This document shows positions 2,082 through 21,102 of a stretch of DNA of 23,977 nt, one piece after another. Under the pieces are notes generated by a model. The model did not search any database. It saw only the letters and a list, made by a program, of their open reading frames with translations, and had not been told where the DNA came from. Each line of letters starts with the position of its first letter. Position 1 is the stretch's first letter. Position numbers and translations under genes: made by a program. Source of the stretch: a virus; IMG/VR virus record IMGVR_UViG_3300045747_000138, positions 1-23,977 of that record; one strand, 5' to 3'.

Positions 2082-2731
2082 GACGGAAACAGCCGAGGCG
2101 GGAAGTACATGCGGCCAGCCTTGAAGCCAGTGTGATTGACGATGGCCGGAATGTAGTTGTTGATGTTGCTCATGGCCGCTTTCTCAGCGCGCAACATGTC
2201 CGGTGTAACGCCTCCGGAAATGGTGGGCGCCACACGCACAGTCAGGCCAGCGCCCAGGGCCGACTTGTACCCGGCCGGTGCGGTGTATTCGGTGGCCAGG
2301 TCGGCAAACTCTGTCACGGTGTTGCGGGTCTGCACCTTGATGGTCTGACCGGTTGGTACAGGCCACAGATAGACGTTGCTCATGCCATCGTGCGCCCACA
2401 CAGTCGGCAAGCCTGTAACTGTCGGGTTGTAGAGCTCGTTGTACTGCTGCATGGTGATCTGTCCCATCGTCAGATTGTTTGCTGTGGCGCTCACAATCTC
2501 ATCGCCAGGCTTGATGGCAGCCCAAGCGCCAGATCCGAGGGTGATGTGCCCTGTCTGTGCCGAGCTGGTCAGCACGGACTGGAACAGGAACATATTCAGG
2601 CTTGAAAGCTCATCGACCAACAAGTTCAGCTTGCGCAGTGCAAAGGCAGCATCGTCCGCGCTTAGGGGCTCACCTGGCGTGAGCTTGTTGCAGCGCTCAT
2701 AAGCATCGTTGATGATTTCCAGAGCGTTCAT
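2078..2731 (-). CDS. P22 gp4-like head-to-tail adaptor (tail accessory factor)
   Basis: The product is 217 residues, longer than P22 gp4 (166). The N-terminal half is a helical bundle beginning MNALEIINDAYERCNKL, followed by ALRKLNLLVDELSSLNMFLF, the usual opening of phage head-tail adaptors of this class. A beta-rich middle (HITLGSGAWAAIKPGDEIVSA) and a helical C-terminus follow. In P22, twelve copies bind the portal after DNA packaging and form the platform for gp10. It starts three bases after the stop of the 50-residue gene upstream (TAA GCT ATG), so translation is probably coupled; the local Shine-Dalgarno signal is weak. Its stop overlaps the gp10-like start. The extra length is mostly C-terminal. 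Confidence 0.85.
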   Translation of the reverse strand: MNALEIINDAYERCNKLTPGEPLSADDAAFALRKLNLLVDELSSLNMFLFQSVLTSSAQTGHITLGSGAWAAIKPGDEIVSATANNLTMGQITMQQYNELYNPTVTGLPTVWAHDGMSNVYLWPVPTGQTIKVQTRNTVTEFADLATEYTAPAGYKSALGAGLTVRVAPTISGGVTPDMLRAEKAAMSNINNYIPAIVNHTGFKAGRMYFPPRLFPS

Positions 2732-2734
2732 AGC

Positions 2735-2887
2735 TTACTTCTTGGCGGTCTTCTCAACCGGTGCAGCAGGAGCCACATAGGCGGGCAGATAACCTGCCTC
2801 TGTAAGGGCGATGTGATCCGCCTCATCATTTGCAACAGCAAAGCCGATGGCGGGTGCGGGAAGTTTCATATCAAGGGGGTAGTCCAT
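2735..2887 (-). CDS. Small 50-residue protein between coat and gp4-like genes
   Basis: This short frame begins MDYPLDMKLPAPAIGFAVAN and ends PVEKTAKK. Its ATG at 2887 has a good ribosome-binding site (GGAG about six bases upstream) and its TAA lies three bases before the gp4-like ATG. Phages often carry a small protein of this size after the major capsid gene; some are head-completion or decoration factors. No membrane segment or known domain is visible. The Lys/Glu/Thr-rich tail looks flexible. The role is unknown; expression is supported by the ribosome-binding site, tight spacing and lack of any alternative use of this stretch. Confidence 0.65.
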   Translation of the reverse strand: MDYPLDMKLPAPAIGFAVANDEADHIALTEAGYLPAYVAPAAPVEKTAKK

Positions 2888-2915
2888 GGTTTCTCCAGTG
2901 GGTTAAAGATGTGAG

Positions 2916-2942
2916 AAAGGGGCCAGCCATTCAGCCAGCCCC
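2916..2942 (-). terminator. Hairpin just after the coat gene, possible weak terminator
   Basis: Read on the minus strand, GGGGCTGGC and GCTGGCCCC can pair as a nine-base stem with two G-U wobbles and a six-base loop, followed by only a short TTT. The wobble pairs form on the minus-strand RNA but become mismatches on the plus strand, so the signal fits leftward transcripts. It lies 14 bases past the coat stop codon. It could attenuate transcription so that coat protein exceeds downstream tail proteins, or protect the 3' end of coat mRNA. The U-run is too short for a confident terminator. Confidence 0.4.
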
Positions 2943-2955
2943 TCAGGTCCAACAA

Positions 2956-4230
2956 TTAGTTGGTGCGACGCACGCCGAAGTTCGCAAGGGTCACCGCGCC
3001 ACCCCACAGGATGTCGAAGCGGCTCACGAAACGGTTGTTGGTGATGTCGAAGCCGCGCACGAATCGCAGAGACACACCACCCTCATCGGCCATGCTGGCC
3101 TGGTACGCCATATCCATACCACCCGGAATCTCCTGCTTGGGAGACACAAAGGTGAAGGCATTTTTGTGCCACACCAAGTTCTGGGTGTAGGTCGTGTTGG
3201 CTGCACCCGAGGTGATGGTGATCGCAGCCAAGTTGGCAGGGCGCGACGTCACGTTCTGGTACGCGCCACCGGCGATGATCGCGGGGCTGATGATCACAGT
3301 GGCTGCACCACCAGCATCAGACGACACCGCAGCGGTCACCAGGAACGACTGCAGCACACCGGTGCTGGCCTTGGTCTCGGGATTGACCGAGAACACGCCT
3401 GCAATGGTGAATGTGTCGCCTTGAGCCAAGCGGGCAGCTGCTGCCGCAGTCCATCCGCTGGTGGCCAGCGAAGTGGTTGCACCAAACGGGTTATCGGTCG
3501 CGCCTGCGTTGATCAAGCCTTGGTTAGCACCAGCCACCACCGGAGTTCCGCCCAGCGGACCAACGGTGTGGCTCGGCACGTTTTGCGACATTGCGAAGTC
3601 CAGGCCCATACCTGTTTTCAGTACGCCAGTTTTGTACTGGTCACCCAGCATCGCCTGGTTGTTGAACAGGGTGGACAGACCGGCCACGATGGTTGCATTC
3701 GCACCGGGCTCAATGGCAGCCATGCGCATACCGTCGCGGGGCACAGACATGCGATCCAGCGGCACCTGAGCGTTCAGAATGTCAGCAACCGATGCGGGAG
3801 GCGTTCCGGGCGTGCCGACGATCTGGTGGAAGCCGTTTTTCATCAGCGTGGCGATGCGGTAGTCCAGCAAAGCGGCCAACTTCAAACCTGCGGGCTTGAG
3901 GTAACGTTCCTGGAATGCCTTGTTGACATTGCCGTCCGAGCCCACGGAGGTGGTCAGGTCGGTGGAGCCCACAGCGAAGTCCAGACCGAGCAGAGGCTGC
4001 AGGGTCACATCCACAGTGCGCTCGGTCACATCCTGCACGGATGCGGTTTCGCCGTCACGGTGGGTGAACTGGACCGGTGCGCGAGCCTTGACGGTCGTGC
4101 CGGGTTTGTATTGACCTTGCCAGGCGTTGTCATAGTCGGTGTTGACGTTGCCCAGGAAGGCCGAGGAGTTGTGTGCAATCCGCAGGACTTCATTGGTCAC
4201 TACGGTTGCGGTAATAAGTGCGTTTGCCAT
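2956..4230 (-). CDS. P22 gp5-like major coat protein
   Basis: The 424-residue product is close in length to P22 coat protein (430). It builds the icosahedral shell with an HK97-type fold. The N-terminus MANALITATVVTNEVLRIAHN, the VKARAPVQFTHRDG stretch and the long-helix/E-loop pattern match the P22 coat family. Residues about 240-350 are a Thr/Ala/Val-rich beta section (FTIAGVFSVNPETKASTGVLQ) that corresponds in position to the extra I-domain inserted into the P22 fold. A putative Shine-Dalgarno GGAAA lies about eight bases before the ATG. The gene is directly downstream of the scaffold, as in P22. No truncation is visible; the C-terminus ends in WGGAVTLANFGVRRTN. Confidence 0.9.
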   Translation of the reverse strand: MANALITATVVTNEVLRIAHNSSAFLGNVNTDYDNAWQGQYKPGTTVKARAPVQFTHRDGETASVQDVTERTVDVTLQPLLGLDFAVGSTDLTTSVGSDGNVNKAFQERYLKPAGLKLAALLDYRIATLMKNGFHQIVGTPGTPPASVADILNAQVPLDRMSVPRDGMRMAAIEPGANATIVAGLSTLFNNQAMLGDQYKTGVLKTGMGLDFAMSQNVPSHTVGPLGGTPVVAGANQGLINAGATDNPFGATTSLATSGWTAAAAARLAQGDTFTIAGVFSVNPETKASTGVLQSFLVTAAVSSDAGGAATVIISPAIIAGGAYQNVTSRPANLAAITITSGAANTTYTQNLVWHKNAFTFVSPKQEIPGGMDMAYQASMADEGGVSLRFVRGFDITNNRFVSRFDILWGGAVTLANFGVRRTN

Positions 4231-4272
4231 GATTGTTTCCAGCGCTTCTCAGCGTTAAGTGGTGAATGAAAT

Positions 4273-5109
4273 TTAGAGCCCTTTGCGCTCTTGTTCGTTG
4301 CGCCAGCGCATCCAGGCCTTGGTATCTGTTGGGTCCGGTGCACCAGTGACTTTTCCCTGCCCACGCACAGCTTCAAGCGGGGCAGGCGCGTTCGAAACCT
4401 TCGTCTTGGGCTTTGGCGCTTGCGTGGAGAGCTTTGCTTCGAGCTTGGCAATTGCCTTGCCTGCCTGCATGGGGCCCATCTTCGCAATGCGTTCGGCTTC
4501 TTCGAGGTTGTCAGGGTCCGCGAGGTACTCGATAACCTTTGCAGGTTCATCGGCTTCGAAGATAGCTTCGATGGCAGGCTTGATGCTGCCGCTGCTGTCT
4601 GTCAGTCCGCCGACGGCATCATCCAGATCGGATGACAGCTCGTCGAATTTCTCTTGGCCCCAGGTCTTGGCAAGCGACTGAATAACGCTCTGACGGCGCT
4701 CGACTTCGAGGGCTTGATCTTTGAGGGTCGGCGCGAGCTTTTCAGCTTCAGCTTTGACCATCTCGTTGATCTGGGCCCGAGTCAGCGACAGAGGTTCGCT
4801 ATCGTCTGCGGATGCTGGATTGTCTTGCTTGCCACGGCCTTGTGTCAACTGCTGGCGCAGTTGGTCGGCTTCAGCTCGTGCTTCGGCAAGTTGGCGAGTA
4901 CGGCGATCGATGCCACGTTGCATGCGCTGGCGTTCTCGCTCCTCCGGAGTTTTCTCAGGCTTGGCTGCGGCTTCTTCATCATCCTTGCCTTCGCCCCCGG
5001 GGTTTTCCTCACCGGTCTTGACCTCTGTTGCCTCCACGTCAATAGTCGTTTTGGCTTCAGGGCTTGCCGCGTTTGCTGGGTTGGCAATGCTCAGTTCTTC
5101 AGTGGTCAC
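4273..5109 (-). CDS. Capsid scaffolding protein (P22 gp8-like)
   Basis: This is a highly charged, mostly helical protein: acidic and disordered at the N-terminus (GEENPGGEGKDDEEAAAKPE), a long coiled coil near residues 50-110 (EERERQRMQRGIDRRTRQLA), and a short basic C-terminal helix (AWMRWRNEQERKGL). That layout is the hallmark of P22-type scaffolding proteins, whose basic C-terminal helix-turn-helix binds coat protein. Length is about 278 residues; P22 gp8 has 303. It lies immediately before the coat gene. I chose the GTG at 5109 because GGAG sits eight bases upstream. GTG at 5118 and TTG at 5127 are in frame and remain possible, with a G-rich site nearby. Scaffold assignment comes from position and composition, as these proteins diverge strongly. 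Confidence 0.85.
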   Translation of the reverse strand: MTTEELSIANPANAASPEAKTTIDVEATEVKTGEENPGGEGKDDEEAAAKPEKTPEERERQRMQRGIDRRTRQLAEARAEADQLRQQLTQGRGKQDNPASADDSEPLSLTRAQINEMVKAEAEKLAPTLKDQALEVERRQSVIQSLAKTWGQEKFDELSSDLDDAVGGLTDSSGSIKPAIEAIFEADEPAKVIEYLADPDNLEEAERIAKMGPMQAGKAIAKLEAKLSTQAPKPKTKVSNAPAPLEAVRGQGKVTGAPDPTDTKAWMRWRNEQERKGL

Positions 5110-5201
5110 GTTGGACACTCCATTCAAACCCTCCCCTCAAAGTCACCAGGGGTTCAGGTGCGGCGCTTCGCAGCGGACGCTAAATGCCGGGTGAACGGCG
5201 G

Positions 5202-6194
5202 TTACATCATCAGCATCAGGTCGTCGTCCTGCTGCCTACGTTTTGCACGGGTGGCGCGTTGAATGCGCTCCTCCACATCGATCTGGTTGACTTGATTTAT
5301 TTGGGCTGCGGCCTGCTTACCGACGAGCTGGGCCAAGCTGATCGTTCCGCTGCGGCGTGGCTTTGCCAATTCGGTTATCACCACGGCCTCATCGAGCTTG
5401 CGCTGCTCTTCCTCGTAGCGCTTGCGCATGCGCTGGACGTTGCCGGTGATGACCTGGATCAGTCGATCAGGCGGGCCGATCTGCTGGACGCTGACGGATA
5501 CGTCATCGAGCGCAATGCTGATGGTTTGGTCTTGCGTCGTTGGACCCAGTGACTGGCTGACCGACACCACAACGTCATCCAGGCTGAAAGCCAGCGCTTG
5601 GGGATGGGTTGCAGTCTGAGCCGCGGCGATGGAGACTCCATCCAGCACAGCAGTAACGGACTGCGGGTGCTGCAAATTCTGTGCGCTGGCGCTTGTTGCA
5701 TCGTCCAGCGTGAAGGCAATGGACTGGCTCCACGATCCTCCTGCAGATCCGGTATTGGTCTGGCTTGCAGCAACCACCACATCATCGAGCGTGAACGCGA
5801 CCGACTGTGGGTGCTGTGCTGTCTGCGCCGCTGCTGCTGTCAGGTCGCCCAGGGTGAAGGCTACGGACTGGCCGTGCTGTGCCGCCTGTGCAACGCTGAC
5901 CGCAATGGTGTCCAGCGTGATCGCTGCGGATTGCGCATGCTGGAGCGTCTGGGCTGAGGCGATTGCAATGCCGTCAAGGGTGAATGCGATGGTCTGGCTG
6001 TACGTTGCAGGCCCGCCTCCGCCAGCAGTCCAGGTCGTGAGCCCTAGAACCCCATCAACAGGCTGCGCTGTGGCGCTGGCACCAGCCGCAAACTGGCTGT
6101 GTGCTAAACCATCCTGCAGGACAAACGTCCCTGCCGTGGCCGGTGTGGCAAACGCATCATTGGCAATTACGCCATCAATGAGTTGCCAGGTCAT
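5202..6194 (-). CDS. Tandem-repeat virion-like protein with C-terminal helical domain
   Basis: The product is 330 residues in three parts. Residues 1-66 are a non-repeated head (MTWQLIDGVIANDAFATPATA). Residues 67-240 hold eight consecutive units of about 21 residues with the pattern Q-S/T-hydrophobic-A-F-T-L-D-D/G-V/I, ending in a Ser/Ala-Gln turn and often His-Pro. Residues 241-330 are a charged helix (RMRKRYEEEQRKLDEA) followed by a Gln/Arg-rich tail. The repeats look like paired beta strands and may form a fibrous or solenoid module. The ATG abuts the TAA of the upstream gene. The ribosome-binding site is weak, suggesting coupling. It lies between portal and scaffold, a position that in P22 has no such gene. 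A head fibre, decoration or ejection role is possible but unproven; I do not recognise a family. Confidence 0.8.
   Translation of the reverse strand: MTWQLIDGVIANDAFATPATAGTFVLQDGLAHSQFAAGASATAQPVDGVLGLTTWTAGGGGPATYSQTIAFTLDGIAIASAQTLQHAQSAAITLDTIAVSVAQAAQHGQSVAFTLGDLTAAAAQTAQHPQSVAFTLDDVVVAASQTNTGSAGGSWSQSIAFTLDDATSASAQNLQHPQSVTAVLDGVSIAAAQTATHPQALAFSLDDVVVSVSQSLGPTTQDQTISIALDDVSVSVQQIGPPDRLIQVITGNVQRMRKRYEEEQRKLDEAVVITELAKPRRSGTISLAQLVGKQAAAQINQVNQIDVEERIQRATRAKRRQQDDDLMLMM
5475..5996 (-). repeat. Eight tandem 21-residue coding repeats
   Basis: Units begin at residues 67, 88, 109, 130, 157, 178, 199 and 223 of the 330-residue protein, giving spacings of 21, 21, 21, 27, 21, 21 and 24 residues. 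The longer spacers hold Gly/Ser/Thr insertions (NTGSAGGSWS and GPTTQD). Conserved positions are the first Gln, a Ser/Thr next to it, the Leu-Asp pair at positions 7-8 and a Gln near position 16. The DNA is diverged between units, so the array is old or under selection at protein level. It is not a CRISPR array: there are no identical repeats or unique spacers. Confidence 0.85.
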
Positions 6195-6866
6195 TTAGTT
6201 GAACTCAAACCAGGCGCCGTTGATCAGAATCTTGCGGTTGCCAGTCGTAACGGCAAATGTTGACCAAACCACAATGCCCTCACCCGGAAGCAGTATCAAT
6301 TCATCGTCTTCATCGCGTGGGTTCCACTCGTCGGTCTGCGCAGACCAATGCCCACCGCCACCTGTCACCAGGTCCATGGTCATGCCGATCATCGAAAAGA
6401 TCGCCGCCACGTTGGTGACAGTCAGGCCAGTCGAAGCAAGGGCCAGCAATCCCTGTGCAGTGGCATCAGCAGTTTTTCGTTTCGCTGGCGTAGTGACAGC
6501 AGCCGATAGCGTTCCGGTGAAGCTGATGCGGTTGATTTGGATCAGCGGTGCGATCAGGTCTACGGCAAGTGTGGTACTGAAATTGTGCTTCATGGTCACC
6601 CGGTCTACCGCCATCTTGATGGTGCTCGATAGCGGGTTGATCAAGAACATGAAGCCGGTGGTAGTGCCAGTGTGCACAGCGGCTGGAATGGCCTGTGCAG
6701 CCAGGGTGAACTTGTACTGCCCGGTTACGTCACGTTCGGACGATTGAATGAAGAAATATTCCTCCACTGTATTGGCACCGACAACACTCCGTTTGGTACG
6801 AATACTTTTGCCGGTGTTCCCTGTATCGAGAGGCAGGACGACGACTGAATCGGTCTTGGCGGCCAT
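6195..6866 (-). CDS. Unknown 223-residue structural-type protein
   Basis: The protein starts MAAKTDSVVVLPLDTGNTGK and is rich in Thr, Ala, Val and Gly with regular hydrophobic stretches (GFMFLINPLSSTIKMAVDRV, ILLPGEGIVVWSTFAV), which suggests a beta-sandwich virion protein. There is no signal peptide or clear membrane segment. GAGGGG lies about nine bases before the ATG, which itself overlaps the intergenic boundary of the preceding gene (TTA/CAT adjacency). It is the second of three genes between portal and scaffold, and its stop abuts the start of the repeat protein. A decoration, head-fibre base or minor capsid role would fit. I do not recognise a named family. Confidence 0.8.
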   Translation of the reverse strand: MAAKTDSVVVLPLDTGNTGKSIRTKRSVVGANTVEEYFFIQSSERDVTGQYKFTLAAQAIPAAVHTGTTTGFMFLINPLSSTIKMAVDRVTMKHNFSTTLAVDLIAPLIQINRISFTGTLSAAVTTPAKRKTADATAQGLLALASTGLTVTNVAAIFSMIGMTMDLVTGGGGHWSAQTDEWNPRDEDDELILLPGEGIVVWSTFAVTTGNRKILINGAWFEFN

Positions 6867-7241
6867 TTATGGATTCCCCTCTGTGATTGTCATGCTGGAA
6901 GTCGTAACTACATCGCTGACTGCAATCGTGGTATTCGTGATGATTACGTTCGTTGCGGCCGTCCCAACGGTCAATCCCTCCATGACCATCGTCACACCGT
7001 CATTTTTGTACAGCCTGGCAATGGCCGCCGTACCTGCGCCGGTAGCCGTGGCGCTCCCGATCGCGTTAGCAGTCAGCACACCTGCAGCAGCAGCTGGGGC
7101 CAGCGTGGCCGAACAAAGCGACTCGTACAGCAATGCGCCATAAGCTGCGGTGTAAACCCGCAACTTGGCATTGGCACCTGCGAAGGCGGTGATCTGGTCT
7201 GCGCGGTTGTTGCGCAGCGTTGCGGCTAACGTGATGGCCAT
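6867..7241 (-). CDS. Unknown 124-residue structural-type protein downstream of portal
   Basis: The sequence MAITLAATLRNNRADQITAF opens a small Ala/Thr/Gly-rich protein with predicted beta strands (AKLRVYTAAYGALLYESL, VTMVMEGLTVGTAATNVIIT). GGAG lies six bases before the ATG, inside the last bases of the intergenic gap after the portal gene. Proteins with this opening occur next to structural genes in many tailed phages, but I know of no experimentally defined function. Together with the 223-residue and repeat genes it forms a three-gene insert between portal and scaffold. It could be a small head decoration protein. No Cys pairs, membrane spans or nucleotide motifs are present. Confidence 0.8.
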   Translation of the reverse strand: MAITLAATLRNNRADQITAFAGANAKLRVYTAAYGALLYESLCSATLAPAAAAGVLTANAIGSATATGAGTAAIARLYKNDGVTMVMEGLTVGTAATNVIITNTTIAVSDVVTTSSMTITEGNP

Positions 7242-7244
7242 GGG

Positions 7245-9632
7245 TTACTCCTGCGTGTCATCCGAGCCCTGCTCGATGACGTGGGTGATGTTTCCGTGCT
7301 TGTCTCGCACCGGTATCTTGGTTCTGGGCTTGCCAAGAGAGTGTGCAAGCTGCGCGATTGAGTCAGCCATAGCCCCATGGTTTTGCGCCTGCATGCCGAT
7401 GGCTTGCACCATGGCTGCCACGTCCGGAGAAGGCCCTGCGGGTTGTGCTGGACTTGGGTTCTGTAATTCCTGCGGCTCCGGTGCTTCGCCTTCTGCCTGC
7501 TCATGACCGGGGGAACCGTCAGGGCCCGGGCCTTCAATGGGCTCCACTTCACCCTGCTCTGGAAGAGCTGCGCCCTGCCCCATCTGCTCACCAGGCAGCG
7601 GATCGGGATGGCTCAGCATCTGCTCGATCAGGTCGCGCGTCACGGCTTGGATCTGATCCACGTTCGCGCCGGTGATCTTCAGTCGATTGGTCTCGGCGTC
7701 ATATGCCTTGATGTCGAGCTCGCGTTCTTTGACCTCGGCCATGCGCTTGGAGTCGGCCACGGCTGCAATGGCCTGGTCTGCATCTTCTTGGGCATCCTTG
7801 GCGTGCTGAATGGCTTCCTGCAAGGCCTGCTGTGTCTGCTCCAGCATTTGCTGCATTTCCTGCATCTGCTGGGCCAGCTTGGCGGGGTCCGGACCTTCAT
7901 CTTGTCCCTCGGGCTGGATGATTGCCTTCACCGGAGGCGGGGCCATTGCGGCCATAGCCTGGGCGAACTTGTCAGATCCGGGGAAGTCCAGCGTCTGTGC
8001 CCAGAACGGGGCCACGGTGGGAGCCAGCTCCGGATTGCCACGCATGATCTCGCCAAAGGCTGCATTGGTCTGGCTGCGCTGGGTGCTGTAGCTGGCGCCG
8101 ACCACCACCCGCACGCCGTACTTGCCGACATTGGGATTGATCGACACGCCACCACCTGGAAGACGCTCAAAGCTTGTCTCTTGCTCCGGGTTCACATCGA
8201 TCTTGCCGGCAGATCCGTCCACGCCGATGATTGGCTGCTCTCGCTGGGTGTCGGTCAGCTTGGCATCCATCTGCATCACGATCTTGCCAACCTGCCCTAG
8301 GCTGGCAGACAGGTGGGATGGGAAATGCGCGGTGCTGGCCTCGCCCTGCTGCTTGCGGGACTCGATGGCAACGCCGCTGGATTCGTTGCTGGGTGCACCA
8401 AGGTTGGCCTGGTACATGCCGATACTCGCTTGAATGTCGCGCAATGCGCTCTCTGCGCCGCCCACGTGGTCCACCAGTGATGAACCAATCTTGATCAGCG
8501 ATGGCGCAGAGATGGGGCCATCTTCATCCTGGTCGTTGTAGGGCATGTACGCCCTGCGCTCGACCATGTTTTTGTCCCATATGCGCTCGACCCCAGACAA
8601 TGCACGCTTGGATGCCAGCAACTGCGCACCGGGCATCATCAATTCCGACTTGTGATAGTTGTAGGCCTGCTGGGCAGTGCGCGCACGCCGTGGGATTCCG
8701 CAATAGGTCATGCGGCCATCGGTGAACCCGACATAGCCATAGACCGGCACGATGCCGATTGAGTCTGCCGGGTAGATCGACTCTTCCAAGATGTCTGCGC
8801 CTGACATGCGTGACCACTTCACGCAGTCGTACTTGTCGGTGTAGTTGCGGATGAATTGCAACTGCGCACCGGCTGCCATGCATGCCTCGTGGTATTCCTC
8901 TTCACCATCGGATACCTCTTGTCCAGCTTGGTCAAAATACACGATCACATTGCGCGTCTTGGCTTCTTTCCCCCAGTGCTCAGCCAACAGTACCGACTTT
9001 CGGTTGTTGTCACGGCGTGAATATTCAGGGTCGCCAAAGTCTGCAGAATCCTTGCCTTTCCACTTGGACTGAAACATGGCAATCGACATGCTGGTCAGCA
9101 CAAAACCAAAATCAGCGTCACTGCCGTCTGTCTCTGTGCTCCATGGATCAAACACCACCTTGAGTGGGTCGGGCTCACTGCCAATGCGCGGTTCCTGCCA
9201 GCCCAGTGCACGGTCCACATAGACCGGTCGAACGGTCAGGTAGCCGACACCCGTGCGTGATGCGCTGGTGAGTGCCCTGGCGTAGTGCTGCATGGCGCAA
9301 GATGCGTGCTCGATGTGGCGAAAGCGTCCGTCGATCTGCTCGGCCGCCTTCTTGTCGGCGCCACCACCGACAGGGATTGCGTGGATTGCCGGAGGTTGCT
9401 TTTCCACCTGGCCAGCAACATTTGAGACGTACTGGCCGGTTTGGTCCAGCACCAAACATGGACGGCGACCACCTGGGTCACCTTCACGCTGGATCTTGAT
9501 TGCCGCATCCCACTGCTGTGGGTCTGAAGGGTCGGAGAATTTCAGATCTTCTTCAACTTGAAGGCGCTGGTCCCTCGTAGCTGATAACGATTCCTGGTAG
9601 AGCTTCTGAGCGTCCTTGAGAACGTCAGACAT
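7245..9632 (-). CDS. Portal protein (P22 gp1-like)
   Basis: This large protein (795 residues from the chosen start; P22 gp1 has 725) forms the dodecameric ring at the DNA-entry vertex, which docks the terminase and later the tail. Features of the P22 portal family include the N-terminal MSDVLKDAQKLYQES, QPPAIHAIPVGGGADKKAAE, the VVFDPWSTETDGSDADFGFV stretch, and PYNDQDEDGPISAPS. Residues about 580-650 are a long Gln/Glu/Ala helix, corresponding to the barrel helix of P22. A Pro/Gly/Glu-rich linker (about 675-735) and a short helical tail follow. The frame extends upstream to a TTG at 9695, but I prefer ATG 9632: the TTG would lie upstream of a predicted promoter's start point. No strong Shine-Dalgarno precedes 9632. 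Confidence 0.9.
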   Translation of the reverse strand: MSDVLKDAQKLYQESLSATRDQRLQVEEDLKFSDPSDPQQWDAAIKIQREGDPGGRRPCLVLDQTGQYVSNVAGQVEKQPPAIHAIPVGGGADKKAAEQIDGRFRHIEHASCAMQHYARALTSASRTGVGYLTVRPVYVDRALGWQEPRIGSEPDPLKVVFDPWSTETDGSDADFGFVLTSMSIAMFQSKWKGKDSADFGDPEYSRRDNNRKSVLLAEHWGKEAKTRNVIVYFDQAGQEVSDGEEEYHEACMAAGAQLQFIRNYTDKYDCVKWSRMSGADILEESIYPADSIGIVPVYGYVGFTDGRMTYCGIPRRARTAQQAYNYHKSELMMPGAQLLASKRALSGVERIWDKNMVERRAYMPYNDQDEDGPISAPSLIKIGSSLVDHVGGAESALRDIQASIGMYQANLGAPSNESSGVAIESRKQQGEASTAHFPSHLSASLGQVGKIVMQMDAKLTDTQREQPIIGVDGSAGKIDVNPEQETSFERLPGGGVSINPNVGKYGVRVVVGASYSTQRSQTNAAFGEIMRGNPELAPTVAPFWAQTLDFPGSDKFAQAMAAMAPPPVKAIIQPEGQDEGPDPAKLAQQMQEMQQMLEQTQQALQEAIQHAKDAQEDADQAIAAVADSKRMAEVKERELDIKAYDAETNRLKITGANVDQIQAVTRDLIEQMLSHPDPLPGEQMGQGAALPEQGEVEPIEGPGPDGSPGHEQAEGEAPEPQELQNPSPAQPAGPSPDVAAMVQAIGMQAQNHGAMADSIAQLAHSLGKPRTKIPVRDKHGNITHVIEQGSDDTQE

Positions 9633-9683
9633 GGCAAGGCGTATTAGACATCCGGACGTTTCCCAACGGTGCGAAGATGCAGG

Positions 9684-9712
9684 ATTATGAATCAAATGCT
9701 TTGAACGATCAA
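9684..9712 (-). promoter_or_regulatory. Possible sigma70-type promoter in front of the portal gene
   Basis: On the minus strand, TTGATC (9712-9707) and CATAAT (9689-9684) are separated by exactly 17 bases, matching sigma70 spacing with four of six and five of six consensus bases. Transcription would begin near 9677, about 45 bases upstream of the portal ATG. The stretch is AT-rich compared with the flanks and lies in the only clear gap between the terminase and portal genes. It could provide structural-gene transcription in addition to read-through from the early operon. Confidence 0.4.
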
Positions 9713-9754
9713 ATTCACATGATTCAGAAGTATTGATTGAAGCTGATCGGATGG

Positions 9755-11251
9755 CTAGATCACGGCGCCTCTAGCTGCGCTGCTTTCGTAGTCGTAGCCA
9801 CCCTGCTTCTTGCGGCCAATGGTGTCAGCTCCTCTGCCCAGCATACCCAGGGTATCAACACCATCATCGGGAGACCCAGCCGGGAATACCAGGCACTGCC
9901 GCTGCAGTTCAGCCACCCAAGCAGCGCGCGGCCAAAGCAAGCGGCCCATGCCGGCCGTTGCGATGATGGATTGCGCCTTGGTGGGCTTGTCGCCAATGTG
10001 GGGAAGCCATTCGATCATGCACATCGCCTCACGGTCGATCATGCGTTGGCGAATGCGCCCCTCGGTTGCCCTGCGTATTGGGCCAGTTTCGCCAAACCAC
10101 TTGATCGGCTTCCAGCGGATGATCATGTCCAGCTTCCTTTCGATCCATTCCTCTGGTCCAGTCTGGCCGCGCCACCAATCGAGCAGGTATAGGGTGCCGT
10201 CCGGCGCAATGCCGCACACACCATGCTCTGTCCAGTCTCCACCCTCAGGGGTTACCGCATAGTCGCTGGCGCCAATGATGCGCATGCCATCAGGAGCCCT
10301 TTCATAGGTGGCCATATCCGCCTTACGGAACAAGATGCCATCGTCAGGGGCTGGGCGCTGCTGGTACAGACTTGACCAGGTGCGACGGTTGAGGCGGAAT
10401 TGAGTCCAGTGCTTGGTATCAAACCATTCTGTCCACAGCATCTGGCCAACCTCGCGGCCAAGCGGATCGCTCTTGGTCTGGGCCTCGGCCTGCAGGCACA
10501 GTACGCGCCAGGTGTTGCCATCACGGCAAACAATGTCACCCGACTCACCGGCCCAGTCTGCCGGGAGGATGCGCCCACATAGATCATCTTCATGCCAACG
10601 CGTGTTGATGATCACGACCCATCCGCCAGGAATCAGACGGGTGAGCAAGTCGTCTTCGTATGCCTCAAAGGTCCTTTTTCGAACGGTCTCGCTGTCGGCC
10701 TGCTCGCGCCCCTTGATCGGGTCATCGATGATGATGCCGTGGGCACGGTTACCGGTGACGCCGCCCATGATGCCGCAGGCAATGTATTCGCTGCCATTGG
10801 TCAGGCCGAACTCATCGGCTGCGCGCGACTCCGGATCAATGGTGCAGTCCAGAATGCTGGTGGTCTCTTTGGAGCGCAACAACTGGCGGGTGCGGCGTCC
10901 ATGTCGACGTGCCAGGTCGTCACCGTAGCTGGCCAGGATCACGCGGCGATCTTCCTGGGTGCCGAGATACCAGGTCGGCGCGACGACACTCGCATAGGTG
11001 CTCTTCGCAGATCCAGGCGGTGCCATGATCATCAGGCGGCCGTGCGGGGTTTCCATGCATCGCTGCATCTCTCGCAAGATCAGCTTGTGATGCTCGGCCT
11101 GCTTGGTCTCGATCAGCGGAATCTTGGCATCGATGTCCTCTTCCTCGGTGGGCGAGCCTGGGACTGGAACGCGCGCGGCGAATGCCTCAAGACTCTTGCG
11201 GCAGGCCCGGCGCACCATCAGAACGGAATGAGCTTGTTCAGGATTTAGCAT
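9755..11251 (-). CDS. terL: Terminase large subunit (ATPase-nuclease)
   Basis: The 498-residue protein is the DNA-packaging motor: it translocates DNA into the prohead and cuts the concatemer. Numbered from the chosen start, residues 77-85 are the Walker A loop APPGSAKST, residues 173-178 are Walker B IIIDDP, and NTRWHEDD near 216-223 is the coupling segment. The nuclease domain starts near GASDYA, with Asp 330 as the first likely metal ligand, and a later acidic pair occurs in PDDGVDTLG. P22 gp2 is 499 residues. I chose ATG 11251 (MLNPEQAH), which overlaps the end of terS by 14 bases and has GGGG just upstream. An upstream TTG/other start at 11281 would add ten unsupported residues. Confidence 0.95.
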   Translation of the reverse strand: MLNPEQAHSVLMVRRACRKSLEAFAARVPVPGSPTEEEDIDAKIPLIETKQAEHHKLILREMQRCMETPHGRLMIMAPPGSAKSTYASVVAPTWYLGTQEDRRVILASYGDDLARRHGRRTRQLLRSKETTSILDCTIDPESRAADEFGLTNGSEYIACGIMGGVTGNRAHGIIIDDPIKGREQADSETVRKRTFEAYEDDLLTRLIPGGWVVIINTRWHEDDLCGRILPADWAGESGDIVCRDGNTWRVLCLQAEAQTKSDPLGREVGQMLWTEWFDTKHWTQFRLNRRTWSSLYQQRPAPDDGILFRKADMATYERAPDGMRIIGASDYAVTPEGGDWTEHGVCGIAPDGTLYLLDWWRGQTGPEEWIERKLDMIIRWKPIKWFGETGPIRRATEGRIRQRMIDREAMCMIEWLPHIGDKPTKAQSIIATAGMGRLLWPRAAWVAELQRQCLVFPAGSPDDGVDTLGMLGRGADTIGRKKQGGYDYESSAARGAVI

Positions 11252-11786
11252 GATGCCCCATTGAAATTTCCAACAGCTCATCGTCTGAATAGTCGGCAGC
11301 GCGCTTCTTGACAGTCACATCAGCGGACACCATAACTTTGTCGGTAAACATGCCAAGATGCCTTGCGACGCTATCCAGTGCACCCTTCTTGTCCGCAAAC
11401 TTCACCTTCTTTGTGGTGACTGTTTGTTGTGACTCTTTGTCGTAGCTGTCGGTCACATCCACGCCAACGAGCGCAGCCGCCACATCTGCATCCAGCAAGT
11501 GAACAGGCTTCAATACGCCTGAATCATCATAAAAGCGACGTGGGTCAAGGAATGCTAACTTTGCGTACTCAGCAAGAACACGATCTTGAGTTATCTCAGT
11601 TCGGCGCTCTCTAGCCTTCATACGCAATGCGATTTCCATAGAAACGTGAGTTTTCGTGAGTAGCTGCGGGCCAATCCATTCAGCGGTTTTCTTGCTGTAG
11701 CCTGCTCGAATAGCAGCCTGAGTCGCATTCAGATCGATAAGATATTCATCAGCAAACACCTTTTGCCGTGCTGTTAGTTGCTTCAT
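11238..11786 (-). CDS. terS: Terminase small subunit (Terminase_2 family)
   Basis: The product has 182 residues. The N-terminal MKQLTARQKVFADEYLIDLN followed by ATQAAIRAGYSKKTA is the characteristic helix-turn-helix of the Terminase_2 (PF03592) small subunits, which recognise the packaging start site and recruit the large subunit. The middle (RVLAEYAKLAFLDPRRFYDD) and the LDSVARHLGMF motif are also typical. The C-terminus is basic and then acidic (VKKRAADYSDDELLEI), probably the segment touching TerL. The start at 11786 overlaps the TGA of the preceding zinc-knuckle gene by ATGA, and the stop lies inside the start of terL. Packaging sites (pac) for such phages are often inside or near this gene, but I cannot define one. 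Confidence 0.92.
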   Translation of the reverse strand: MKQLTARQKVFADEYLIDLNATQAAIRAGYSKKTAEWIGPQLLTKTHVSMEIALRMKARERRTEITQDRVLAEYAKLAFLDPRRFYDDSGVLKPVHLLDADVAAALVGVDVTDSYDKESQQTVTTKKVKFADKKGALDSVARHLGMFTDKVMVSADVTVKKRAADYSDDELLEISMGHHAKS

Positions 11787-12037
11787 TTGTCACCATCCTT
11801 TATCCAGGCGCGAGCCCGAGCGGTTGCACTATCTTGCGGGCTCAGTGCGGTTAGATGCCATTTCTTGCACAGAGGGCATTTGTACGGCGTTTGATCTTTA
11901 CGGTCGTCCTTTTTTACATTGCGCTTTGCGAAATCACGAGCATCGTTCTTCGTGTCGTGAATCTTCTTATCGAAGCACATGCGGTGGGCAGACTCCAAAG
12001 CTATGTGAATTCCAAGATGGTCCATTCCATGTCTCAT
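11783..12037 (-). CDS. Small zinc-knuckle protein upstream of terS
   Basis: The chosen ATG at 12037 gives 84 residues (MRHGMDHLGIHIALESAHRM) and has GAGG seven bases upstream; it also overlaps the TGA of the 33-residue gene (ATGA). A longer in-frame start at 12088 only re-reads that smaller gene. The middle is strongly basic (KRNVKKDDRKDQ), followed by YKCPLCKKWHLT, a C-x2-C-x3-H pattern that may bind zinc. Very similar CPxC-x-x-WHLT knuckles are seen in small proteins of other phages, without a known job as far as I know. It could bind nucleic acid, for example in late regulation or packaging, but this is inference. Confidence 0.75.
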   Translation of the reverse strand: MRHGMDHLGIHIALESAHRMCFDKKIHDTKNDARDFAKRNVKKDDRKDQTPYKCPLCKKWHLTALSPQDSATARARAWIKDGDK

Positions 12038-12135
12038 TTCTTTTCCCTCATAGCCCGTTGATGTTGACCAGCTGAACGGTTGATCCATTCTTTGAGGCGC
12101 TTCATTGCTGCAATTGCCATTAGTTCGGGTGTCAT
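12034..12135 (-). CDS. 33-residue peptide coupled at both ends
   Basis: The frame begins ATG at 12135 (MTPELMAIAAMKRLKEWINR) and ends TGA at 12034. Its ATG overlaps the TGA of ninG and its TGA overlaps the ATG of the zinc-knuckle gene, both as ATGA. This double coupling is the best evidence that it is translated. The peptide is an amphipathic basic helix with Trp, ending QRAMREKK. No function is known; it may be a small DNA-binding or regulatory peptide. Confidence 0.6.
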   Translation of the reverse strand: MTPELMAIAAMKRLKEWINRSAGQHQRAMREKK

Positions 12136-12680
12136 TGCTTGGCCTCCAGTTCTTTCAGCTTGGCTCGGTACTTGGCCTTGATCACCTTAAGTTCGTCGAC
12201 TGACCACTTGTGCACCTGGTTGTTTGCTTCTAGTGCTTCAACGCGCTGCAGGCCGATCCTTGCTATCAGGCCGATGCGGTAATCGACTGCCCTGCCGGCG
12301 CCGTGTCGGTTGCATACCTTTCTCTGCCCGTGAGCGTTGTCTTCGTCAAAACGGAGGTGACTGGCGCTACCAGTACTGCGGTAGTGCCCACAGTCGTAAC
12401 CGCCGCCAACTGCTTCTTTGATGAGAGGTTGTCCACAGCAGATACACGGAAATGAACTATCTCTTGCACGTACATAAGCGTTGAATGCAAACTGGGCCTC
12501 CTTGATTAAGTCGGGGATTCGTTTCAGCGCGGCTTTGCGTGCCTTGTCGCGCTCAACAATTTCCTTTTTCTGTGCACGTACCAAGCGACTTGCACAAACC
12601 GGCGAGCAAACCGATTGCAGAGGACGCATGGGGACAAAACACCCGCCACAATGCTTGCACTCCTTCTGGTGGACGGTCAT
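12132..12680 (-). CDS. ninG: NinG/Rap-like recombination protein
   Basis: NinG (Rap) of lambda is a structure-specific endonuclease that acts on recombination intermediates. Here the 182-residue protein carries an N-terminal zinc site, C8-x2-C11 with C25-x3-C29 (KECKHCGGCF...VCSPVCASRL). A basic helix (RDKARKAALKRIPDLIKEAQ) comes next, and the core follows with FPCICCGQPL, GYDCGHYRSTGSASHLRFDE and QRKVCNRHGAG, which is the conserved NinG (PF05766) signature. The start ATG 12680 overlaps the stop of ninB (ATGA); an upstream in-frame start at 12698 is less likely because it breaks that pattern. The lambda nin region has the same ninB-then-ninG order. The C-terminal KELEAKQ tail is helical. Confidence 0.88.
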   Translation of the reverse strand: MTVHQKECKHCGGCFVPMRPLQSVCSPVCASRLVRAQKKEIVERDKARKAALKRIPDLIKEAQFAFNAYVRARDSSFPCICCGQPLIKEAVGGGYDCGHYRSTGSASHLRFDEDNAHGQRKVCNRHGAGRAVDYRIGLIARIGLQRVEALEANNQVHKWSVDELKVIKAKYRAKLKELEAKQ

Positions 12681-13135
12681 GGCCTGTACCCCATCCAATC
12701 TGTAGTGCTGAACTCCACGCCAAGCTCGGTTGCGCCATAGGCAAGAACCTGCTCAATGAAGGCGCTCATCTTCTTGACGCTCAGGCCCTTGGTGGTGCCG
12801 ATGGTGGTGGAAATTACCGGACGCTTCTTGCCAGCCACATGCGATTTGGTTTTCTTGCGCGGCAGGTACATGCGCTTGAACAATTCATGCCATGCGTCCG
12901 AGGTGTACCGAACGCCGTCAATCTTTGCCTGGTGCGCAATCTCGTGATAGACCACGCCCCACAGGAATTTGCCCTGCTGGACGGTCTTTGCATCTTCCTC
13001 TGGCTCGACGGTCACGGTCAGCCGCTCGATGCCATTGGCCCACATGGATTTACAAAATGGGGCAATCTGATGGCTGATGCAGGCTTTTGCCTGATCGGGG
13101 TTGATGAAATAGGTTTGAAGGGCGTATTCACTCAT
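12677..13135 (-). CDS. ninB: NinB/Orf-like recombination mediator
   Basis: The 152-residue product matches lambda NinB (Orf, 146 residues) in architecture. Lambda NinB is a dimeric ssDNA/SSB-binding mediator that can replace RecFOR. Recognisable parts are the VTVEPEEDAKTVQQGKFLWG segment (lambda has the equivalent R-x-x-x-Q-N-x-x-LW), the YTSDAWHELFKRMYLP helix, TTIGTTKGLSVKKMSAFIEQ and the C-terminal ATELGVEFS, comparable to GTERGVKWS in lambda. ATG 13135 overlaps the TGA of the 58-residue upstream gene. The protein is followed by ninG with ATGA overlap. It probably acts with the Sak4/SSB/exonuclease set encoded at the right end of the window. Confidence 0.88.
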   Translation of the reverse strand: MSEYALQTYFINPDQAKACISHQIAPFCKSMWANGIERLTVTVEPEEDAKTVQQGKFLWGVVYHEIAHQAKIDGVRYTSDAWHELFKRMYLPRKKTKSHVAGKKRPVISTTIGTTKGLSVKKMSAFIEQVLAYGATELGVEFSTTDWMGYRP

Positions 13136-20222: not shown

Positions 20223-20461
20223 CCGATCAAGAACGTGACGCCCTGCGGTACATCTACATCCGCGAGTACCTCTACCTGCGCTCAGGTGAGTTCGACGCAG
20301 ACATCATCAAATTGTTCTCCATGCAGTCAAAGGAATTTGACGCAGAAATTGACAAGCAGATGGATATCTGCCCCAAGGGCCAGTGGAAGAAAAAAGTATT
20401 CCACCAGTGCGATGAAGAAGGTGCACGCCAACAGTACGCATCACGCATGGAGGATGTATGA
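20219..20461 (+). CDS. Unknown 80-residue early protein
   Basis: It begins MTDQERDALRYIYIREYLYL, an aromatic amphipathic helix, and is acidic overall (FDADIIKLFSMQSKEFDAEI) with a short basic patch near GQWKKKVFHQ. The pattern is compatible with a small helical binding protein. There is no Walker, zinc or membrane motif. It is coupled by ATGA to both neighbours and so is very likely translated. The function is unknown. Confidence 0.75.
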   Translation: MTDQERDALRYIYIREYLYLRSGEFDADIIKLFSMQSKEFDAEIDKQMDICPKGQWKKKVFHQCDEEGARQQYASRMEDV

Positions 20462-21102
20462 CCGAAAAAATGAAAGACATGACAGGCATGCGCTTTCATA
20501 GACTGCTAGTCATCGACTGCGCTGGCAAACCAAACGGACGATCTTATGCATGGAATGTCGTATGCAATTGCGGAAAGTCGTTTTCTACTATGGGCAGCAA
20601 TCTGCGCAGTGGGGCGGCAAAAAGCTGCGGATGTCTGCAACGGGAAAAGGCCCGAGCAGCTGGGGATAGAACTCGCACTCACGGCATGACGAACACATCG
20701 ATCTATTCGATTTGGGATTCTATGCACCAGCGCTGCAGTAACCCGAACCGCAAAGATTTCCGCAAATACGGCGGCCGGGGAATCAATGTCTGTGATGCCT
20801 GGAAAAGCTTTGGGCAGTTTCTTGCCGACATGGGCCCACGCCCAACTGGAATGTCACTGGACCGTATCAACAACGACCTTGGATATTCGCCAGAAAACTG
20901 CCGTTGGGCTACTGCCAAACAACAAGCACGAAATCAAAGAACAAACCGGCTTATCACCTATTTGGGAGAGACGCTTTGCTTATCTGAGTGGGCAGAAAAG
21001 TTATCAATCAGCCAAATCACATTGCAAACGCGAATTACTAAATACAAGTGGTCTGTGGAGCGCGCATTAACCCAACCGGTACAGAAGCACCATGCCAAAT
21101 AA
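20458..21102 (+). CDS. Phage HNH-type/zinc-ribbon DNA-binding protein
   Basis: A 214-residue protein with three parts. Residues about 35-60 (VVCNCGKSF...KSCGCLQ) form a four-cysteine ribbon. Residues about 80-155 carry the IWDSMHQRCSNP, YGGRGINVCDAW, MSLDRINNDLGYSPENCRWA series found in a large phage family usually annotated as HNH or homing-type endonucleases. The C-terminus (LSEWAEKLSISQITLQTRIT) resembles a helix-turn-helix. The typical HNH catalytic histidines are not obvious, so it may only bind DNA. It is coupled to the upstream gene by ATGA and overlaps the next gene. It could be a self-spreading element or a regulatory DNA-binding protein; both are inference. Confidence 0.75.
   Translation: MTEKMKDMTGMRFHRLLVIDCAGKPNGRSYAWNVVCNCGKSFSTMGSNLRSGAAKSCGCLQREKARAAGDRTRTHGMTNTSIYSIWDSMHQRCSNPNRKDFRKYGGRGINVCDAWKSFGQFLADMGPRPTGMSLDRINNDLGYSPENCRWATAKQQARNQRTNRLITYLGETLCLSEWAEKLSISQITLQTRITKYKWSVERALTQPVQKHHAK

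Follow-up and report, generated by a model that had tools for sequence, protein, structure and literature searches.

Organization of the locus

The window, that is, the whole stretch of DNA analyzed here, is a virus contig of 23,977 bases. An open reading frame on its minus strand (5202 to 6194) starts with ATG and encodes a protein of 330 amino acids. This protein has three parts, a leader, a repeat block and a C-terminal tail, and with a matched partner gene it forms a modular cassette inside the virion structural gene block, with a P22-type portal gene on one side and scaffold and coat genes on the other. The features are as follows.

7245 to 9695, minus strand: P22-type portal protein, the upstream boundary of the cassette (PF16510, E 5e-108)
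6867 to 7241, minus strand: 124-aa protein matching PHROG 3758, "virion structural protein" (E 6e-9)
6195 to 6866, minus strand: 223-aa partner protein, an N-terminal arm plus a predicted jelly roll (residues ~46 to 223)
5202 to 6194, minus strand: 330-aa repeat protein, leader plus eight repeats plus helical tail
5997 to 6194, minus strand: leader, residues 1 to 66, conserved in 28 loci, with its boundary taken from the comparison with contig L002
5466 to 5996, minus strand: repeat array, residues 67 to 243, eight units with strands at matching positions in the AF2 model
5205 to 5465, minus strand: charged helical C-terminal tail, residues 244 to 330, with AF2 helices at 253 to 276 and 287 to 329
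5205 to 5234, minus strand: acidic-then-hydrophobic C-terminus QQDDDLMLMM, a motif enriched in these proteins
4273 to 5127, minus strand: scaffold protein, the downstream boundary of the cassette (phrog_8865, head scaffolding, E 5.5e-28)
2956 to 4230, minus strand: P22-type coat protein (PF11651, E 1e-34)

The original prediction had placed the repeat gene between portal and scaffold, where it does lie; it does not, however, adjoin the portal gene, since the genes at 6195 to 6866 and 6867 to 7241 intervene. The 124-aa neighbor matches PHROG 3758 over its full length (residues 1 to 121 on positions 1 to 137 of the 140-position profile), and the stop codon of the 223-aa gene, whose product has no family match, directly abuts the ATG of the repeat gene. 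In other phages the same interval is filled differently. Rhodoferax phage P26218 has scaffold and coat genes directly after the portal gene, and in Acetobacter phage phiAX1 a single 813-nt gene separates portal from coat, so that, unlike in the window, the gap is empty or nearly so. Phage DSL-LC05 (L085), the best portal relative, has several genes in its portal-scaffold gap, including those for a tailspike and a pectate-lyase-family protein; its interval, like that of the window, is occupied by inserted genes, whereas the window holds a predicted jelly roll and a putative repeat shaft instead. The contents of these three gaps indicate that genes can be inserted at this position, and in one phage at least they are adhesion genes. 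DSL-LC05 is a P22-like lake phage, and its tailspike and pectate-lyase-family genes (8118 to 12967) stand at an unusual place for receptor-binding genes.

Repeat array and C-terminal tail

The eight units start at residues 67, 88, 109, 130, 157, 178, 199 and 223, giving spacings of 21, 21, 21, 27, 21, 21 and 24, and thus bear out the earlier count of eight 21-residue units with two expanded spacers (27 and 24). The autocorrelation at lag 21 was 1.02 (z = 10.4 over 1000 shuffles, with 0.33 as the largest shuffle value at any lag). The unit consensus is Q-S-h-A-h-T-L-D-D-h-x-h-A-h-A-Q-T followed by a loop, and insertions in the array are placed in one loop. Q1, L7 and Q16 occur in all eight units and D8 in seven, so the constant Leu-Asp and terminal Gln noted before are correct. 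Positions 3, 5, 7, 10, 12 and 14 are mostly large hydrophobic residues, positions 2, 4, 6, 11, 13 and 15 are mostly A/S/T, and D-D or D-G stands between the two 7-residue amphipathic strands of each unit. This pattern, together with a low-confidence AF2 model, supports the paired beta strands originally proposed and suggests that each unit would be a beta hairpin with a two-residue turn, one hydrophobic face and one face of small residues.

At the DNA level, Tandem Repeats Finder reported nothing at the array, and the periodicity is visible only in the protein. Codon agreement at identical residues between units was 0.46, compared to 0.44 predicted from codon usage. Synonymous codons are thus randomized between units, which argues that the units are old and that the protein pattern has been held by selection rather than produced by recent expansion. 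Across the whole window, the program listed a single DNA tandem repeat, with 2.5 copies of 13 bases, at 11408 to 11440, inside a 182-aa open reading frame (11238 to 11786).

The charged helix noted after the repeats is also supported: the last 85 residues carry many charges, and helices are predicted at 253 to 276 and 287 to 329, with block-mean pLDDT of 79 to 93 across the last 40 residues of the AF2 model. An acidic-then-hydrophobic C-terminus was found in 22 of 40 repeat proteins versus 7 of 349 control open reading frames (Fisher p = 3e-19, an optimistic value because the 40 proteins are related), and 6 more of the 40 have a basic cluster at the C-terminus.

The AF2 single-chain model of the repeat protein was poor (mean pLDDT 54, pTM 0.37). 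It displays a regular 16-strand pattern, each unit contributing two strands of ~7 residues, and its C-terminal helix is confident; Foldseek with this model gave no significant fold match. The predictor may be unable to fold a fiber from one chain. OspA single-layer sheet mutants formed the top Foldseek rows (E 0.05) and were discarded, the model being poor.

Family and literature searches

With a family match defined by the curated cut-off or E < 1e-3, the repeat protein matched no family in Pfam (best, DUF6764 at 16.7 bits against a cut-off of 27), NCBIfam (best, 17.6 bits against 40) or PHROGs (best E 0.18), and a PDB sequence search returned nothing for the partner or the repeats; the view that no known family is present stands in all four. 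In 50,697 deposited phage genomes, tblastn found no relatives of the window repeat protein, its L017 relative, a 124-aa relative or the 491-aa partner from L002. A profile of the 223-aa protein found none in 84,980 bacterial and archaeal genomes, where the repeat profile gave a single locus; it lies in a metagenome-assembled genome of Methylibium, a member of the Burkholderiales, with HK97-like head genes as judged by eye. Similar "VSVTG" repeats may occur in marine phages; a search with such repeats gave no match, and BLAST masks sequence of this type. Literature searches found no description of the family.

Pairing of leader and partner

Among virus contigs the 223-aa protein has 34 relatives (64 to 85% identity), and the gene that follows them is nearly always a leader plus repeats, where the contig continues. 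The conserved part of the leader is ~55 aa long (MAFTLIDGVIANDAFATPATPGTSQLVDGINNQAFATPASATAQPVDAVLGLTTW-like) and apparently consists of two to three degenerate ~20-residue copies (L-x-D-G-V ... F-A-T-P-A). When only the leader served as query, 28 loci were recovered, and a 223-aa relative lay immediately or almost immediately upstream in all 28, counts that are not independent because many of the related contigs derive from samples with similar numbers and several are near-duplicates. In L076 and L063, ~210 bases separate the two genes. This co-inheritance of leader and partner could in part reflect mere adjacency on the DNA. One extra ~20-residue copy is present within the leader in L027 (6674 to 6904) and L031 (6682 to 6903), where the leader is thus itself repeat-like.

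The comparison with contig L002, a close relative and the clearest case, locates an exchange within the cassette. L002 and the window share 81% DNA identity from the portal through the end of the 124-aa gene and 89% from codon 66 of the repeat gene, which adjoins the first repeat, through the scaffold gene into the coat gene. Between these stretches, the 223-aa gene and its leader have given way in L002 to two genes, of ~100 aa and 491 aa, and a different leader. Leader and partner are thus exchanged separately from the repeats, and the crossover point, where the leader meets the repeats inside the open reading frame, argues for a functional link between leader and partner.

The window-type repeat, searched as a profile, occurs at 15 loci, in which the leaders before the repeat vary (MSLLL..., WFDxEL x3, AFQSNAFQ/AFDSGAFD, or a 231-aa domain in L043) and the upstream genes also differ. 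MSLLL-leader proteins have a ~500-aa partner family upstream in three of four cases, and WFD-leader proteins have a 395-aa partner family in three of three. In L043 and in phage ctEqG8 (MW202795; L081), the repeats are fused behind an N-terminal domain, of 231 aa and ~199 aa, respectively; neither domain matched a Pfam family, which counts against taking an adhesin nature as proven. A guess that the L043 domain is LamG-like received no support from Pfam or the PDB.

Turnover of repeat sequence at a constant period

In all four pairs with 90 to 99.5% identical 223-aa partners, the repeats are unrelated, and BLAST sorts the repeat regions of the leader-type proteins into 12 clusters. What is conserved is the period, with a top value of 20 to 23 residues in 23 of 27 proteins that share the leader. 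L017 and L061 peak at a doubled lag, 44 or 47, and have 21 or 22 in second place; L007 (14) and L028 (18) are exceptions.

Wholly different repeats in close relatives are what would be expected if the repeats were low-constraint filler, generated by DNA-level expansion through slippage or recombination and lacking a selected structure. We consider this very improbable: no DNA tandem repeat was detected at the window array, slippage would not fix a period of 20 to 23 residues in most of 27 proteins, and the randomization of synonymous codons while residues were kept marks the window units as old and selected, which for the window already contradicts this explanation.

Distribution among capsid types

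The capsid types of phages carrying the cassette, of either the window-repeat or the leader kind, include P22 coat (PF11651), Phage_capsid_3, HK97 Phage_capsid, GP7 and phrog_9953. A relative of the PHROG 3758 protein was present in 7 of the 7 first-tested contigs with the window-type repeat and in 12 of 20 contigs of a second, mostly leader-type set. The cassette lies away from scaffold genes in L047, L048 and L051, and near tail or other late genes in other carriers. Its presence in phages with unrelated capsids indicates that it is not a trait specific to the portal-scaffold gap. In L047 and L048 it adjoins genes related to the giant family phrog_9880. Two open reading frames in L048 (3 to 9207) match adjacent parts of this family (profile positions 947 to 1325 and 1301 to 2213 of 2231), and the 124-aa, partner and repeat genes occupy precisely the interval between the two, which looks like a giant gene split by the cassette. 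In L047 (1 to 2703), the upstream open reading frame stops at the same profile position as in L048.

These locations bear on the idea that the repeat protein is an assembly protein, that is, a chaperone, scaffold or portal-vertex helper that serves the partner or the procapsid off the finished surface, the specificity of the leader then being client recognition. The match between leader type and partner type would fit such a role, as would the charged helical tail, the position between portal and scaffold in the window, and the direct abutment of the partner stop codon and the repeat-gene ATG, suggesting translational coupling. However, the complete turnover of beta-repeat sequence between close relatives would be unusual for a chaperone, and the cassette also occurs away from scaffold genes and with HK97-type and other capsids. 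An assembly role is, in our judgment, unlikely, at roughly one chance in five.

Predicted fold of the partner and a possible relation to head fibers

The model of the 223-aa partner (pLDDT 76) consists of an N-terminal arm and a jelly roll. Its best PDB match by VIA-align was the trimeric cement protein of H. pylori phage KHP40 (Z 8.0 over 114 residues, 3.1 A), which is to be taken as a hint only, because a Z of 8 is near the aligner background of 7 to 8, a level that unrelated models often reach. The next matches were a plant nanovirus capsid, the turret of the archaeal virus HFTV1 (Z 7.6), geminivirus capsids and C1q/TNF domains. Foldseek of the partner in BFVD returned uncharacterized phage proteins, including ones from Pantoea phage LIMEzero and Citrobacter phage CVT22; their lengths point to late genes close to the lysis genes and not to neighbors of the portal, so they do not decide the location.

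A special case of the shaft interpretation developed below is a head fiber or capsid decoration, in which the jelly-roll partner would be a cement protein of the shell and the repeat protein the fiber protruding from it. Head fibers are documented on phages, for instance the capsid fibers of phage 7-7-1 (PMC12796354), and those of phi29 consist of helix-turn-helix repeats according to the title of a reference cited in PMC12796354. The window genes adjoin capsid genes, as do those of such head fibers and cement proteins (7-7-1, phi29 and KHP40, PDB 7dou), the repeat block suggests a protruding rod, and the jelly roll is most similar to the KHP40 cement protein, at the near-background Z given above, with the HFTV1 turret close behind. 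On the other hand, C1q/TNF domains, plant virus capsids and tail-tip proteins score similarly for the partner, other jelly rolls reaching Z of 7 or more; the cassette is found close to tail or other late genes in further carriers; and with several unrelated capsid proteins among the carriers, a direct contact with the capsid would need to arise anew in every case, unless the 124-aa protein serves as an adapter. The predicted hairpins also differ from the helix-turn-helix repeats of phi29, and no sequence relation of the window protein to any known head fiber was found. This special case is somewhat improbable, with about one chance in four.

A putative exchangeable shaft module

At about even chances, we propose an exchangeable module on the virion surface, an adhesin or fiber, in which the protein would serve as the shaft subunit. 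A virion shaft or fiber is plausible, and a head fiber and a tail-attached adhesin stalk fit the data alike. The original suggestion of a new virion component with beta strands and outside known families is supported on the last two points, and the protein is one case of a wider modular cassette. The proposal is supported by the maintained periodic pattern, the leader-partner pairing, the swap in L002 and the conserved period; we also count in its favor the "virion structural" PHROG 3758 neighbor, the KHP40 match, the tailspike gap of DSL-LC05, the differing capsid families of the carriers and the fused domains of L043 and ctEqG8. We infer the rod shape, the oligomeric state, the location on the virion and the role in attachment, and the module might work as follows: (i) each ~21-residue unit would fold as a beta hairpin with a hydrophobic and an Ala/Ser/Thr face, as the sequence pattern and a weak model suggest; (ii) stacked units would form a rod, probably a homo-oligomer, in which the length of the coil and not its sequence would be under selection; (iii) the leader, given its strict co-inheritance, would dock the rod to the partner encoded just upstream, which is the 223-aa jelly roll in the window and an unrelated protein in other phages; (iv) the helical, acidic-hydrophobic tail could fix the other end to the virion or assemble the oligomer; and (v) the whole module may serve attachment to a host or surface, the least certain step. 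A swappable shaft with a leader tag and a tail would jointly account for the maintenance of the pattern, a period that stays fixed while the sequence varies freely, the pairing and the differing capsid types.

Two-strand repeats are familiar from other systems. The adenovirus triple beta-spiral is trimeric, with a ~15-residue repeat and a conserved Gly/Pro turn, and curli CsgA is a two-strand beta-solenoid of ~22-residue repeats with stacked Gln and a Gly-Asn consensus. Like both, the window units would comprise two short beta strands with alternating small and hydrophobic residues and insertions in one loop. Their period of 21 to 22 is close to that of curli, with Gln in both, and unlike the ~15 of the adenovirus shaft; by PDB sequence search they are unrelated in sequence to either. 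A CsgA-type beta-solenoid was rejected, since period and two strands fit but the window units have D-D/D-G at the turn and no Gly-Asn.

Phage adhesins with repeats, like phage head fibers, are known in general; the unusual aspects here are the conservation of period without sequence and the tag-matched exchange. More tentatively, and at somewhat less than even chances, the cassette may represent a widespread, undescribed class of virion shafts in which the length of a coil (~21 residues, one beta hairpin) is all that selection holds constant while the sequence turns over completely, and in which short N-terminal address tags match shaft and partner, allowing shaft and tip to be mixed and matched across unrelated capsids. 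If so, (i) a component that recurs unannotated in the virions of many environmental phages would gain a name; (ii) a partner-matched leader, a ~21-residue period and an acidic-hydrophobic C-terminus would provide a rule for spotting proteins that sequence searches miss; (iii) a natural protein rod would have its spacing, not its sequence, conserved; and (iv) short address tags would permit the exchange of parts between unrelated viruses, the last two ideas being directly testable with purified pieces.

Among named phages, the podovirus ctEqG8 resembles the window in having a 141-aa gene and ~21-residue-repeat proteins, which end in a basic cluster, and its 269-aa protein is related to the WFD-type partner; unlike in the window, its genes follow the coat gene, and its repeat sequence and leader differ. 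Its two repeat proteins lie at 2332 to 3453 and 4262 to 4639, one annotated as hypothetical (behind the ~199-aa domain) and one unannotated.

Elsewhere in the window, a 214-aa open reading frame (20458 to 21102) has a CGC zinc-ribbon-like start and YGGRGI and LDRIN motifs. In another phage with the cassette, a look-alike (L003, 6031 to 6675) is inserted behind the coat gene, which suggests a mobile HNH-type gene common to these phages.
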